Virus record (IMG/VR): IMGVR_UViG_3300008448_012602
Location: 1-40,672 of that record
Direction: 5' to 3' (one strand)
DNA length: 40,672 bases
From: a virus
Position 1 is the first letter of the stretch. Each line of letters starts with the position of its first letter. Made by a program: the position numbers and the translations under genes. A model generated the notes under the pieces. The model saw nothing but the letters and a program-made list of their open reading frames with translations, ran no database searches and was not told the origin of the DNA. Shown here piece by piece: positions 10,069 to 18,384 of this stretch.

Positions 10069-10527
10069 TTATTGGTTTTCATTGAGTTGCTTAACGTCCC
10101 GTCTGAACCATTTGCCTTGAATATTCTCATTGTACGAATCAGTAGACAGCACTTCGTATACCATTTGATAGAACACTTCGTAGTACGATAATTGTTTTTT
10201 TGAGAAGCAAAATTCGATAATTTCTCTTTTGAACTTGTGTGGACCCAAAACTTTAACGTCTTCCAAAAGAGGTTTACAACTGCCATAGTATTTATTCCAA
10301 TCTGATTCTTTTACTACTTTGGTTTTGTTGGGAACTTTTCCTGGTTTCGACCAAGATTCTTTTTCTTTGAGAGTAAGTTTCTTTGTGAGTAAGTTTCGTA
10401 GTATTTTCTTACCTATGTATATTTTTCCCGTGTCTATGTTATAGATCTTGTAAACGAATCCGATACAGTTTTCAGGAAAATCTTCTAGAGTCAAGTACTC
10501 TTGACCTTGATGCAACCAATTTGTCAT
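10069..10527 (-). CDS. GIY-YIG nuclease family protein
   Basis: 152 residues. The two hallmark strands are GFVYKIYN (23-30) and KIYIGKK (35-41), corresponding to GIY and YIG. Downstream are DWNKYYGSCKPL (77-88) and SYYEVFYQMVYE (114-125), where Glu117 is a candidate metal-binding residue. No DNA-recognition domain such as that of I-TevI is fused, so it may be a small free-standing endonuclease (Seg-like homing type) or a DNA-processing nuclease. It is the last gene of the long minus-strand unit and carries its own late-type element in the 19-base gap to the preceding stop. Its position at the edge of the tail module fits a mobile homing endonuclease, but no intron or insertion scar is visible. 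Confidence 0.75.
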   Translation of the reverse strand: MTNWLHQGQEYLTLEDFPENCIGFVYKIYNIDTGKIYIGKKILRNLLTKKLTLKEKESWSKPGKVPNKTKVVKESDWNKYYGSCKPLLEDVKVLGPHKFKREIIEFCFSKKQLSYYEVFYQMVYEVLSTDSYNENIQGKWFRRDVKQLNENQ

Positions 10528-12454: not shown

Positions 12455-13114
12455 TTATTGTGTTACTTTTGTGATTTGTACTGGTATTGAAATTCTCGCT
12501 CCTGAATCTCTTCCTACTATTGTTAAAGTAGTGAATAAAGACGTATTTGTTCCAAATAAGGTGTTTACAGTCGTTGCAGACATGTTAACAGTAGTTCCTA
12601 TTACTGTGGAGCTCACGTTTGTTCCAACTGTAGTGGTAGTATTTAGCGCAGAAGCTTCTGGTGTGTTTATACCCACTCCCGTAAATGTAGACATTGTTCT
12701 AACGTCTCCTATTGTAGCTACGTACCCAGATTGTTCGAAAGTAGTGGTAGCGCCTATATAATTTAGAGTTTGCGGAGTTACAGATATAGAAGAGCCTTGT
12801 TTGATTACTATATTGCTATAACCTACATCTATTACTGGTATTTTAGCGGTTCCTCTAGGAAGAGTTATAAGTTTAGATCTCATTATCTCTTGATCGTTCG
12901 GATAAGCTTGTAATACGGGCATATTTTCTATCGCTTCACCGTAGAAAGCCGATCCAGAAGGATGATTTGGGTTATACAAACTATAATCTACCTCATCGTC
13001 AGATACGGAAAACTGAGTTATTTGAAAAGATCCATCGTTTCTAGCCAGTAATTCTCTACCTTTTTTGGTGAGAATTGCGTCTACGACTACGGAAGTGTTA
13101 CTTAAATAAGACAT
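12455..13114 (-). CDS. virion structural protein with conserved N-terminal domain
   Basis: 219 residues. The N-terminal 95 residues (VDAILTKKGRELLARNDGSF, then QITQFSVSDDEVDYSLYNP and SKLITLPRGTAKIPV) form a compact domain that I have seen repeatedly in T4-like marine phage tail modules, always without known function. The C-terminal half is a low-complexity Thr/Val/Ser-rich beta segment (for example TTTTVGTNVSSTVIGTTVNM). This suits a fibrous or repeat-stacked part of a virion. It is preceded by a late-type element and heads the last part of the tail unit. Confidence 0.65.
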   Translation of the reverse strand: MSYLSNTSVVVDAILTKKGRELLARNDGSFQITQFSVSDDEVDYSLYNPNHPSGSAFYGEAIENMPVLQAYPNDQEIMRSKLITLPRGTAKIPVIDVGYSNIVIKQGSSISVTPQTLNYIGATTTFEQSGYVATIGDVRTMSTFTGVGINTPEASALNTTTTVGTNVSSTVIGTTVNMSATTVNTLFGTNTSLFTTLTIVGRDSGARISIPVQITKVTQ

Positions 13115-13172: not shown

Positions 13173-13883
13173 TTATTGCTGAGATAATAGCTGAGTTTGA
13201 ACATTAGATTGAATGGTTGATATTTTATCCAATACATCTAAAGTGATGTCTTCAGGTATGGTAAACCCGTAGCCTGTATATCCAAATTTTATATCCAATG
13301 GAATTATTATATTTTGCTCATCTTGTAATTTTTTTACTATTAGCAATTCGCTAATTTGATCTGGATTATTTTGAAAATACACATCTAAATCTGGATTAAC
13401 CGTTATTTGTAGAACGTTAGCGATATTAGAAACAGTTCGAATAGTTAATATTTGAACGCGACCATCGTAAGATTTTATAACTATTTTATCGTTAAACTTT
13501 GGAGAGAACGCTTGAGTGATATTTCCATACGTTGTATATAGACTATTTTGAAATTCAGGAGTTGCGTCTGGAGATATTGCATAAAACGGAATTTGTCGAT
13601 AATCGTCTGTAAAAGAACTAAGAATTGTATTGAATACAAGAACGTTTGGAGGTTGTACAGAATAAACAAAATTTCCGTAATCAGCGCTTGAAGTTGCGTA
13701 AGGATAACCACCGATACTAACTGGTTGTATATCTACTGTTAAACTGCCAGTGCTAACTGATCCTGTCCAATTTCCACTCGTAGGTTGATACTCACTCACG
13801 AACTCAAAAGTAAATTCATCCCCCGCGTAACAGTTACTAAGCGTAGTTGAAATAGAGTATTTTAATGATCCTGATGTTGCCAT
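13173..13883 (-). CDS. virion structural protein, unknown
   Basis: 236 residues, beta-rich N-terminal part (MATSGSLKYSISTTLSNCYA and following) and a helical C-terminus ending in DVLDKISTIQSNVQTQLLSQQ that could form a coiled coil. It begins four bases after the stop of the permuted-intein gene, so the two are almost certainly co-translated and may work together. No intein or enzyme motif is present. It contains only one cysteine, Cys18. I do not recognise the family; a baseplate or tail-tip component is inferred from the operon. Confidence 0.6.
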   Translation of the reverse strand: MATSGSLKYSISTTLSNCYAGDEFTFEFVSEYQPTSGNWTGSVSTGSLTVDIQPVSIGGYPYATSSADYGNFVYSVQPPNVLVFNTILSSFTDDYRQIPFYAISPDATPEFQNSLYTTYGNITQAFSPKFNDKIVIKSYDGRVQILTIRTVSNIANVLQITVNPDLDVYFQNNPDQISELLIVKKLQDEQNIIIPLDIKFGYTGYGFTIPEDITLDVLDKISTIQSNVQTQLLSQQ

Positions 13884-13887
13884 GTTG

Positions 13888-14775
13888 TTAATTAAATATA
13901 TTAATACTTTCGATTACTATTTCTTCTAAATTTCTATTAATTATGATGTCTCCTATAAGTAATTCCTCAGACGTTATATTACTCCATTCGTTGTTTCTTT
14001 TTATTACGTGTTTATGAGAATCAGAACATCTAATCAATCCATTGTTAAGTAAATAAAGTTTGTCTACTTCATGGAAACTTTTAGATGTTATTATAGATTC
14101 TTCGTATTGCATTGTTTCAGGATCTATAGAAAGTAGACTATCTCCAATATTTACGTCTTTTAAAAATATATTTTTTCCATCATATAGTTCTATTAAAGTA
14201 TCGGGTGTTAAACAATTTTTCTGCAAACTTCCATTCTTAAATGAATACTCTCCGTATGGAAATCTATTTGTAGCTGATCTGCCCGTTGCATCTGTTGCTG
14301 TCATTACAGCTTGCCAATAAAAAGTTCCATCAGATGTATTAAATAGTGTTTGTACAGAAAATGATATCGGATTATTTGCTTGCCAACCAAAAAACGACGG
14401 CTGGTACGTCATTGCGCCTTGAGTACTTATACCTAAAGTGTTGTTATATGTAAGTCTTCCATTTTGGAATTGTAATTTTACCATCGGATATGCTTGAGTA
14501 CCCGCGCACCTAGCACCGCCATCTGCGAACTCAAAATAATTTTCGTTTGTATTAGACGATACTATTATTTGTATGGGTAAACTTGGCACGTAACTACTTT
14601 GATAAAATATTTTAGGTTTTACAGTACCGCCAAAATTTTCAATAGTTCTAGAAGAATAGCTAGTTCCAATCGGACATTCGATCGTGTCAGGATTTTTAAC
14701 GTAGTTGTGAGTTAATACTCCATTGGCTATATATCTTTGCGTTGTCGTAGATATATTTATTACTTTATATTTCAT
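13888..14775 (-). CDS. circularly permuted intein (Hint) protein flanking a virion-type cargo
   Basis: 295 residues with intein halves in reversed order. Residues 1-24 form an intein C-terminal piece: block F-like YKVINISTTTQ and block G YIANGVLTHN, with penultimate His23 and terminal Asn24. Residues 25-187 are a beta-rich cargo starting Tyr-Val-Lys and ending Leu-Gln-Lys-Asn. Residues 188-295 form an intein N-terminal piece: block A CLTPDTLIELYDGK with Cys188 and a GDSLLS turn, then block B GLIRCSDSHKHV with a Ser-x-x-His in place of Thr-x-x-His. No homing endonuclease is present. Joined end to start, the two pieces make a complete minimal Hint fold of about 132 residues. The +1 residue is Tyr, as in type A bacterial intein-like domains, which can cleave or splice without a +1 nucleophile. 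Expected products are a cyclic cargo, head-to-tail chains, or a freed linear cargo. It starts 18 bases after the preceding tail gene, and no partner half occurs there. Confidence 0.85.
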   Translation of the reverse strand: MKYKVINISTTTQRYIANGVLTHNYVKNPDTIECPIGTSYSSRTIENFGGTVKPKIFYQSSYVPSLPIQIIVSSNTNENYFEFADGGARCAGTQAYPMVKLQFQNGRLTYNNTLGISTQGAMTYQPSFFGWQANNPISFSVQTLFNTSDGTFYWQAVMTATDATGRSATNRFPYGEYSFKNGSLQKNCLTPDTLIELYDGKNIFLKDVNIGDSLLSIDPETMQYEESIITSKSFHEVDKLYLLNNGLIRCSDSHKHVIKRNNEWSNITSEELLIGDIIINRNLEEIVIESINIFN

Positions 14776-14793: not shown

Positions 14794-17700
14794 TTATATT
14801 CCGTAAGGCTCTCCAAAAGTGATATAGTAAGAATTTCCTGGATAATTTCCTCCTGATCCGCCACCTGTTCCATCTGCATTAAATATATAACTTTGAGAAG
14901 CCGCAATAGTTCCATTTCTTTTAATTAACATGGTAAATGATCCGCTTTCTGCATCATTAGACGCTGTCAAATTCAAATCAAATCTTAAATTAATAACATA
15001 ATTACCAGCATTTCTAACTAAATAATTTGTATAATCTAAAGAACCTGTATCCCCAGCTGAGTGAGCGCCTGATTGATCAATTACTTCTACATCAAATAGA
15101 TTGTATATTGAACCAGTCATACCAGATCCAGAAGGAATAAGAGGGTATCTCAGATTTGTAGATCCAGAAACATAATTATCAGGAAACGGATTATTTCTTG
15201 CTAATACGTATGAATTGCTTGTTCCTAAATAAGAAAAATAAACTCTTTTATCGTTTGCCGCATTAAAATAAAGCATTGGAGTGTAACTATATCCGCTTTC
15301 ATAAATGGTGTGAACTGCATTGATAGACGGCTGTTCGTTATCGAAAAAGTTGTTTTTACTATCGAATTGTTTTACAGTTAAAGTTTTACCTGCTTTAAAA
15401 GTGTTTTGAACTTCGAACCAATTGTTGTTTGATTGATTCAATTCATTAATTCCGCTGACTCTATCAACCAAGTAAACCATTGTAACATCAGTATACCCAG
15501 GAAAAAATATATTAGATTTTATTTGAGAAAATAGACCCAACTTCTGAGTTCTAAGATCTATAACTGGGAATTTTCCGTACGATTTATCTCCCGCATATCC
15601 AAAAGACGCTGTTGTGTATATATTATATTGTCTACCTTCTAATTTAGATCCAAAATATCTCGGTATAGTGCTTCTTTGAGAAAAATAATTAAAATCCTGT
15701 AATTGCGCGTAAGGATTATTTTTGTTAGTGTATGTATTGAAATTATCTGATACCGAATTATCTATTGATTGGGTTATTAATCCAAAATTAACTGGTACAA
15801 TCGAATTATACGAATAATCTAAATCTAAATATTTTGTAGATCTAACAGAAGCTGTTACGTTATTTATAAGAGTATCTAAATAAACGACACTAGATGTCAG
15901 AGCATTGCTTGATTTTTCCGTTTGGTTTCCTAAACTAGTCAAACTAGTTGCAACAACTTGTGTGCCCATATATTCTCCCGTAAATTTCTCGACTCCAAAA
16001 GATTGAGTTACTGATATGTAACCTATCGAAGACGGTACATCTTGGTAAACGGTAGTGTCAGCAGAATAACTTGTGGCCGCGAAAGCTGAAATTGTTCCTA
16101 TATCTATAGATTCAGAATAGTTAGCAAACGCAATTTCAGGCTCGTGACGAGCATACTTACTTCTCTCTAATATATGTGGCTTTATAACAATTCCAGTAGA
16201 AACGTTAGATCTTGCTGGCACAAAATCTTTTACCATTTTGAATAAAGAATTATTATAATACTTTATTAATCTGATGTATTCCCATATAGAATGGGAGTAG
16301 TTATAAGTGCTAAAATAATTATTTCTATAATTGTCTAAACTGTTATACGATGCTGAATAAAGATTTTTTGGATCTCCTATATATTGATCAATGTTAAAAA
16401 CGTTTGCTAATGAAGACGATAGGTTGCTATTAATTTTGTCTGAAGGAGAAAATCCTATTTCTAAGTTATAACTGCTTAATCTATTTAAATCGTTGTATTT
16501 TTGTATAGTTGTATACGGACTTAAAATAGATTCAGATAGATATAGAGCTGAGCTTTGACTAACTATCGATATTTTATCATTATTTATAGAATCTATGCCT
16601 GAAACAGAATTTCTATTGTATCCTCCAAATTCATTTACAGTTAATATGCTATTGGGTATTCCATAACATGCTATTAGAGCTTTTATGCCCCTTTGTGTGC
16701 CTCTAGTTTTTAATAAGTAGGGTAAATTATGATATATGCGTTTGTATACCTCTTTTTGCACTTGATCGTAAGGAAGTATATAAGGTCTTCCTGATCCCGA
16801 AATGCTCGAAGTCACATACGTAGTAATCTTTTCAGAACCTGTAGGAGGCAACAGGGAATTTTGATTATTTGTGCCGAATAAAGAATAGTATACGTCGTTA
16901 GATAGATTTGTATTGGTGTATAATTCTATACCAAATCCCTTTAAAGCATCGGATACAAGATCTAAAGATATTCCTTCGTAAGGATTATTTGAAGCATTGT
17001 ATCTATTTGTGATGTCTTTATAATATATCCATATATTATCGAAATATTGACCAATCATGTCAATAAACGTTATATATGATTCATTGCTATTATCGTCTCT
17101 TAGATATTGAGGTATAGACAATCTTAGTATGTCTTTATTAGTGCTATCGTAAAAAGATGCAGAGAATAAAACAGATGCTGTAGTTGCATTAGGCGTAGTT
17201 GTCGGCGATCCTAACCAAGAAATAGCTTTAGAAGACGTAACAGAGTGTAGAGAGTAGGGTTTTGTGCTAGTAGATTTAGGCCAAGCAAAAGATTCAGATT
17301 CGTAGTATAAATAATATTCGTACGGATCAAATTTTTCTATTACGTTAGAAATATACGTATTTAGTAAATTTACAGACGAAGTCACTGTTGCTTGATTAGC
17401 TGTTCCAACAACAAGACTTTGAGAATATATTTGCTTGTTATAATCTTCTATTAATCCAAGTTTATATACAAAATTATTTACTCTCTCCTCAGCGCTTGAA
17501 AAGTGAATAAAATTATCAAAACTTGAATAATCTACATTTATTGATAGTGCTTTATCTTCGTAGTAAGACATTAGTTGTCTAATTGACGAAGTTAAATTTG
17601 AAGAAAATAATGTATTGTACGAATAATATTGAGTAGTTTGTCCAATTGATTGTTTATCTTTCACATTATAGTTTGGGCCTCTTAATTTAAAAGAGGTATC

Positions 17701-18384
17701 AACTGCTACTGATTCTACCTGTATATCAACTTTGTAACTAACAGAATTTCCTAATTTTTCAACAATTGATAATTGACTTTTTAATTCAATATCAATAGGA
17801 AGAGGTTCATATAATTTTATTAGAAGATAACTATTACCATCGGACTCTGTTATTACAATGGCATTGACTGCTATGATTAAATTATTTCTACCAAAATTCA
17901 AATAAAAATCAGGATAGTAGTTTTTTTGGCTTATATAATTTTCAAATTCATCGAAACCTGCTACGATAGATGTACTAGAAAGATCTTGAGATGCTAATTT
18001 TAATTCTAATCTAGAATTAGAAATTTCTTTAATAAAATATTGAAAAGTGACCGAATCTGATCCAAATAGATTTTTTAAAAAATTATATTGTATATTGATA
18101 ACACCTCTATTATATCCCATCGATTTTACATCTGCCTCAGGATCAATCAATACTCTACTGTATCTATTTCCTACAATATTCGATGTTGGATCTAGTGAAT
18201 ATGGAGCGTTATATCTATAATCTAATAAAAAATTAGAATCGTCCGTGATGAAATACTCTACTGTGTCAACTCCGTCTTCAAATGTATTATTGATATTGTT
18301 ATTAGTGATTAATTGTAAATCTCTAGTACTGTATCTCTGAATCTCAGATCCGAATCCGGTGTATGATATGTTAACAATTTCCAT
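14794..18384 (-). CDS. very large baseplate/tail protein with gpI-like segment
   Basis: 1196 residues, the largest protein in the window and mostly beta-rich. A segment at about residues 545-587 (YHNLPYLLKTRGTQRGIKAL, then ACYGIP and TVNEFGG) resembles the conserved helix-turn region of the phage P2 tail protein I family and related wedge proteins. In those the LP...GT..G..AL..cyG pattern lies at the interface with the gp6/J ring. The C-terminus has a Gly-rich stretch (ADGTGGGSGGNYPGNSYY). It lies two bases after an upstream small gene in the wedge operon. A baseplate wedge arm or a link to fibres is the likely role. The T4 equivalent may be gp7 or gp10 by position; I cannot say which. Confidence 0.65.
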   Translation of the reverse strand: MEIVNISYTGFGSEIQRYSTRDLQLITNNNINNTFEDGVDTVEYFITDDSNFLLDYRYNAPYSLDPTSNIVGNRYSRVLIDPEADVKSMGYNRGVINIQYNFLKNLFGSDSVTFQYFIKEISNSRLELKLASQDLSSTSIVAGFDEFENYISQKNYYPDFYLNFGRNNLIIAVNAIVITESDGNSYLLIKLYEPLPIDIELKSQLSIVEKLGNSVSYKVDIQVESVAVDTSFKLRGPNYNVKDKQSIGQTTQYYSYNTLFSSNLTSSIRQLMSYYEDKALSINVDYSSFDNFIHFSSAEERVNNFVYKLGLIEDYNKQIYSQSLVVGTANQATVTSSVNLLNTYISNVIEKFDPYEYYLYYESESFAWPKSTSTKPYSLHSVTSSKAISWLGSPTTTPNATTASVLFSASFYDSTNKDILRLSIPQYLRDDNSNESYITFIDMIGQYFDNIWIYYKDITNRYNASNNPYEGISLDLVSDALKGFGIELYTNTNLSNDVYYSLFGTNNQNSLLPPTGSEKITTYVTSSISGSGRPYILPYDQVQKEVYKRIYHNLPYLLKTRGTQRGIKALIACYGIPNSILTVNEFGGYNRNSVSGIDSINNDKISIVSQSSALYLSESILSPYTTIQKYNDLNRLSSYNLEIGFSPSDKINSNLSSSLANVFNIDQYIGDPKNLYSASYNSLDNYRNNYFSTYNYSHSIWEYIRLIKYYNNSLFKMVKDFVPARSNVSTGIVIKPHILERSKYARHEPEIAFANYSESIDIGTISAFAATSYSADTTVYQDVPSSIGYISVTQSFGVEKFTGEYMGTQVVATSLTSLGNQTEKSSNALTSSVVYLDTLINNVTASVRSTKYLDLDYSYNSIVPVNFGLITQSIDNSVSDNFNTYTNKNNPYAQLQDFNYFSQRSTIPRYFGSKLEGRQYNIYTTASFGYAGDKSYGKFPVIDLRTQKLGLFSQIKSNIFFPGYTDVTMVYLVDRVSGINELNQSNNNWFEVQNTFKAGKTLTVKQFDSKNNFFDNEQPSINAVHTIYESGYSYTPMLYFNAANDKRVYFSYLGTSNSYVLARNNPFPDNYVSGSTNLRYPLIPSGSGMTGSIYNLFDVEVIDQSGAHSAGDTGSLDYTNYLVRNAGNYVINLRFDLNLTASNDAESGSFTMLIKRNGTIAASQSYIFNADGTGGGSGGNYPGNSYYITFGEPYGI

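Follow-up and report, generated by a model that had tools for sequence, protein, structure and literature searches.

Introduction

Inteins whose halves are arranged in reverse order around a cargo are known from protein engineering. In SICLOPPS and other engineered constructs of the IntC-X-IntN type, the C-terminal piece of the intein (IntC) precedes the cargo and the N-terminal piece (IntN) follows it, a layout of halves and cargo identical to that described below. These constructs were engineered from split inteins of class 1 and carry Cys or Ser at the residue that follows the intein (+1). The natural split inteins of fractured phage genes (gp41, NrdJ, and DnaE type) are likewise two-piece systems with IntC at the N-terminus of an open reading frame (ORF), and their halves are located on two proteins that are joined in trans. 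Bacterial intein-like (BIL) domains lack the +1 nucleophile (PMC7664689). The solved BIL structures closest to the present case, by both sequence and fold, are those of Tetrahymena BUBL1 BIL2 (6y75, 6tmm) and C. thermocellum BIL4 (2lwy), which are cis domains with their halves in normal order. Here, a natural element with the engineered layout, of BIL type and with Tyr or Lys at +1, is described in the 40,672-base virus record IMGVR_UViG_3300008448_012602, which was analyzed as a whole and is termed the window. On its minus strand, from 14775 to 13888, a single ORF of 295 aa carries IntC, cargo, and IntN in that order. It is proposed, with an even chance of being right, that this permuted A-type BIL excises a variable baseplate domain, the cargo V, probably closing it into a ring. 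The preliminary description of the locus knew of no natural system built in this way, a statement that still stands, as no described case of a natural permuted intein was found in the open-licence literature searched.

Results and Discussion

One Hint Domain, Cut and Reversed

A 24-residue IntC, a 163-residue cargo, and a 108-residue IntN had been placed at positions 13888 to 14775. These coordinates were correct, the ORF turned out to lie on the minus strand, and the anatomy was borne out by the ORF itself and by reversed profile matches. IntC (MKYKVINISTTTQRYIANGVLTHN, residues 1-24, 14704..14775, minus strand) closes with YIANGVLTHN, ending in H23-N24, and is followed by Tyr25 as the +1 residue. 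The beta-rich cargo (residues 25-187, 14215..14703, minus strand) runs from YVKNP to GSLQKN and contains conserved Cys residues at 34 and 90. IntN (residues 188-295, 13891..14214, minus strand) opens with CLTPDTLIELYDGK and contains Cys188 and a block B of the form S251-x-x-H254.

The identity of the two ends was examined in the window protein and its homologues from two related contigs, L002 and L246. A canonical profile, constructed from 18 normal-order BILs of phage and bacterial contigs and containing no permuted sequence, matched each of the three permuted proteins twice with the order reversed, at a whole-protein E of about 1e-24. IntN, at the protein C-terminus, corresponds to model positions 1-120 with 72-76 bits. 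The match of IntC, about 22 residues at the N-terminus, covers positions 126-147 (133-147 in the window) with 11.6-12.8 bits, whereas none of 9,000 shuffled sequences exceeded 10.8 bits. The two pieces complement each other with zero overlap. In the reverse test, a profile was built from the three permuted domains after rejoining; it aligned to canonical phage BILs over model positions 1-132, the best whole-protein E values being 1e-20 to 6e-17. Moreover, a phmmer query with the halves rejoined in normal order gave an end-to-end match, over residues 5-132 of the query, to the solved BIL structures 6y75/6tmm (E 2e-4). The Pfam family Intein_splicing (PF14890) scored 14.5 bits with the protein as it is and 17.6 bits with the rejoined domain, both below the gathering cut-off of 35.8, but the close canonical relatives in L240 and L222 also fall under that cut-off. 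At the level of profile comparison, these matches show that a single chain holds the two halves of one Hint domain with their order reversed.

The block A Cys, the block B S/TxxH, and the C-terminal His-Asn of BILs are all present in the window, L002, and L246, and in none of the three is the domain contiguous with the N-half before the C-half. The +1 residue is Tyr25 in the window and in L002 and Lys25 in L246, none being the Cys, Ser, or Thr that a class 1 intein carries. Both halves share one chain, so that the complementary halves on two proteins of a natural split intein are not seen; IntC, cargo, and IntN on one chain are the arrangement of SICLOPPS-type circular ligation. Judged from its sequence, the ORF is a circularly permuted variant of an A-type BIL and not an ordinary member. 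The A-type assignment in the preliminary description is upheld by the profile, the catalytic residues, and the non-nucleophilic +1 residue.

Predicted Structure

The alignment supplied to AlphaFold2 combined the three permuted proteins with canonical BILs divided into their N- and C-halves. In the window protein, the predicted local distance difference test (pLDDT) was 91-94 at residues 1-20 and 91-98 at residues 191-295; in the divergent L246 protein, it was 94-96 at the IntC end and 94-98 at the IntN end. Foldseek ranked BIL2 first for both proteins, with CthBIL4 among the top six, at a probability of 1.0. The two ends of the chain probably come together as a single Hint domain, located beside both ends of V.

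Conservation Across Related Phages

The initial search returned a 100% copy (L003) and an 81% copy (L002) of the whole permuted ORF. The third contig, IMGVR_UViG_3300046804_004993 (L246), was recovered by a DNA pattern with a start codon shortly 5' of an ANGxxxHN motif. Its permuted ORF, of 258 aa and 39% identical overall, occupies the same gene slot as those of the window and L002; a 127-aa cargo separates its 24-aa IntC from its IntN, which has about 107 aa. Between the window and L246, IntN is 48% identical (E 7e-39) and the cargos are barely alignable (E 0.015). Cys188, S251xxH254, H23, and N24 are invariant in the window, L002, and L246. The ratio of nonsynonymous to synonymous substitution (dN/dS) between the window and L002 is 0.085 for IntC, 0.14 for the cargo, and 0.12 for IntN, every part of the ORF being under purifying selection. 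The alignments show that two divergent lineages have retained the permuted layout and its catalytic residues, whereas V has diverged. An assembly join inside the gene, or a chimera, is ruled out, since contigs of different metagenomes carry the intact ORF with intact flanks.

No new permuted ORF was found in a scan restricted to +1 codons whose second base is A, which was complete in viral_contigs (82 stretches) and covered 19 stretches in genome_contigs; an earlier, broader pattern scan covered at least 120 stretches. The patterns require an ATGA start and a [YF]xA[ND]GxxxHN motif, and other permuted forms may escape them. ORFs with an N-terminal IntC in L180, L192, L276, L279, and L287 were rejected as resembling ordinary split inteins, with Cys or Ser at +1 and chance block A motifs. 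Bacteroidia genomes gave two weak matches to the cargo region, and the one examined lies in an unrelated setting.

Position of the Cargo in the Baseplate Module

The tail-module setting proposed previously can be specified as a baseplate module, its upstream genes encoding a GPW_gp25 protein and a protein that weakly resembles Baseplate_J, and it is syntenic gene by gene with Flavobacterium phage immuto (Immutovirus). The upstream neighbour of the permuted ORF is a baseplate protein of 1196 aa (14794..18384, minus strand) with an Immutovirus homologue at 36%, and the downstream neighbour is a protein of 236 aa (13173..13883, minus strand). In about 60 related contigs, these proteins are the two ends of one ORF, mostly of 1,520-1,610 aa: the former corresponds to the N-terminal part of the long chain, the latter to its C-terminal ~235 aa, and between them is a variable middle of very roughly 130-200 residues. 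In the window phage, three separate ORFs replace this one-chain protein, with the permuted BIL protein in the middle. Beyond what the preliminary description had noted, the cargo sits in the slot of the variable middle domain of the relatives. Homology of V to that built-in domain was considered and rejected, as there were no BLAST or profile matches; against the PDB, weak matches to antibody chains alone (best E 0.004) were judged to be noise. The slot in Immutovirus is occupied by an unrelated 404-aa gene without a BIL. The one-chain protein is split into ORFs in the permuted clade and, separately, in L152, L155, L160, and L170.

The upstream protein ends in a C-terminal tail, NSYYITFGEPYGI in the window (14797..14838, minus strand) and NNWYVSFGGIIGGA as the other form, with the motif [NS]xYY[IV][ST]FGxxxG. 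Among all loci compared, this motif lies near the ORF end only in the window, L002, and L246, so that the tail is confined to permuted phages, a second observation that goes beyond the preliminary description. In a tree of concatenated neighbours, the window, L002, L246 (as L294), and L094 form one clade with support of 1.0, and L094 adjoins the window and L002 with support of 0.994. L094 is without the permuted ORF, and its upstream protein carries a 220-aa extension. This distribution suggests that the cassette and the upstream tail were gained or lost together and may hence work together. Fusion to the upstream gene by stop-codon readthrough or frameshift was also considered. The permuted ORF of the window follows one TAA in frame, that of L002 is in a different frame, and in L246 there are two TAA codons; therefore, a conserved mechanism of this kind is not present.

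Other genes of the module include a conserved neighbour of 219 aa (12455..13114, minus strand), which served as bait, and a 152-aa ORF (10069-10527) that matches phrog_447 and the homing-endonuclease family phrog_314 and is kept in L002 and L246.

Proposed Mechanism and Alternatives

In the proposed process, Cys188 would take up the acyl group of Asn187 as a thioester. Cyclization of Asn24 would cleave the chain before Tyr25 and free the alpha-amine of residue 25, V thereby losing both intein pieces. Subsequently, this amine would attack the V thioester in the shared active site to give a backbone ring of 163 residues, while attack by water instead would give linear V. Amine attack has been proposed for BILs in which the +1 residue is not a nucleophile. 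The freed V would next enter assembly as a part of its own, at the position of the covalently built-in middle domain of relatives, and would perhaps dock on the tail of the upstream protein. Self-excision of some kind is predicted with considerable confidence, while ring closure through the amine of residue 25 could go either way. It is a slightly more hesitant suggestion that the backbone-cyclic baseplate protein would be a functional virion part, formed by a natural circular ligation in which the cargo changes freely within a fixed permuted frame. As to origin, tandem BILs with a cargo between them would yield the permuted form directly upon loss of the outer halves, which is offered as a suggestion only.

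Engineered IntC-X-IntN constructs give cyclic or polymeric products (PMC7765530, PMC8405620). A review states that A-type BILs are unable to ligate (PMC7765530), and it also cites a study titled for protein splicing by A-type BILs, so that the literature, as it appears through this review, is not uniform. Several further points weigh against the proposed process. Block F of the permuted BIL is without the usual His. The pLDDT of V is low, and neither its fold nor its end-to-end distance is predicted with confidence. The contact between the two ends of the protein is presumed from the models, and a high pLDDT for each end alone is no proof of packing. The independent lineages with the permuted ORF number only two, both metagenomic. 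Moreover, BILs without a +1 nucleophile reportedly give chiefly cleaved, not ligated, products (PMC7664689), which makes a linear V possible. A cyclic, polymeric, or doubly trimmed product, as envisaged in the preliminary description, is plausible, and ring closure, linear release, and conjugation are not separable by computation.

The cleaved products just mentioned speak for trimming only, an unlikely but serious alternative in which N- and C-cleavage, with hydrolysis of the thioester in place of ring formation, would release V as a linear domain with clean ends. Canonical phage BIL genes also often extend only 1-18 residues past HN, so that ligation would be of little use there. However, trimming would not need a permutation, as nearly the same would be achieved by giving V its own start Met and an ordinary BIL at the C-terminus, and the permuted layout brings both ends of V into one active site, favouring ring closure.

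The ranking of Tetrahymena BIL2 as the best PDB match in sequence and fold raises a different outcome, because BIL2 joins its N-extein to a lysine of the downstream Ubl through an isopeptide bond (PMC8616854). By analogy, an amine of another virion protein, either a lysine or an N-terminus, could attack the V thioester and place V covalently on the baseplate, which would suit a cargo that replaces a domain covalently built into the protein of relatives. Such conjugation is improbable: the upstream tail is without Lys, the downstream N-terminus is without a conserved Lys or Cys, and the C-half on V's own N-terminus would be left unexplained.

A head-to-tail polymer, in which V would be strung into a chain by pairing of each IntN with the IntC of a neighbouring molecule, is highly improbable. 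Engineered IntC-X-IntN does polymerise when its cargo is long and rigid (PMC8405620), but at 127-163 aa V is short enough to favour ring closure, and a fixed copy number is expected of a baseplate part. It is hardly credible that the flanking genes and V, although they fill the three stretches of the one-chain protein, form a three-piece split gene restored by two trans-splicing steps, with IntC pairing with an upstream IntN and IntN with a downstream IntC. The absence of a partner half from the neighbours, already pointed out in the preliminary description, was confirmed in all three phages, and a six-frame profile search of about 117 kb of three (incomplete) contigs found no partner intein half; the halves on V are, furthermore, complementary to each other. 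An inactive, degenerate relic or rearrangement, to which the odd architecture and the few members might point, can scarcely be credited given catalytic residues invariant at 39% overall identity, dN/dS of about 0.1 in both halves, and an ORF intact in three contigs.

Comparison with Canonical BILs

The canonical C-terminal BILs of L240, L222, and L280 and the tandem BILs of L208 share with the permuted ORF the profile from end to end, the block A Cys, the S/TxxH, the HN, and a non-nucleophilic +1 residue, and the first three also share its phage tail setting. In canonical BILs, the Cys-half is followed by the HN-half at the protein C-terminus, whereas the permuted ORF has the reverse order around a cargo. 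In L240, L222, and L280, the +1 residue is Arg, with few residues past HN; other canonical BILs have Lys or Tyr. Tyr or Lys at +1 in the permuted proteins agrees with the canonical phage BILs found here, mostly with Lys, Arg, or Tyr, in a scan that selected such residues.

The genes in L240 (7033-8169), L222 (8721-9833), and L280 (1388-2485) encode small proteins with the BIL at the very C-terminus, apparently tail-fibre tip proteins, and that of L222 adjoins a collagen-like fibre gene. Tandem BILs with a two- or three-residue link occur in L208 (988-3192, BIL1-YKA-BIL2-KK) as well as in L364 and L378. In Phage NCTB (L004, 8483-8944), a 153-aa ORF annotated as an intein domain protein carries a BIL C-terminal half without a recognisable block A and adjoins a tail protein with a C-terminal BIL. 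A ParB-like ORF in L295 (2749-4467) apparently contains two inteins or Hint domains.

Conclusions

The question can be addressed with one small gene. If the proposed excision and ring closure are true, the permuted ORF would provide a ready-made tool for circular ligation in which the junction may be Tyr or Lys. It would also reveal a use for the BIL domains of phages, and it would mean that evolution uses protein-splicing chemistry to make proteins that are ring-shaped or processed at both ends.
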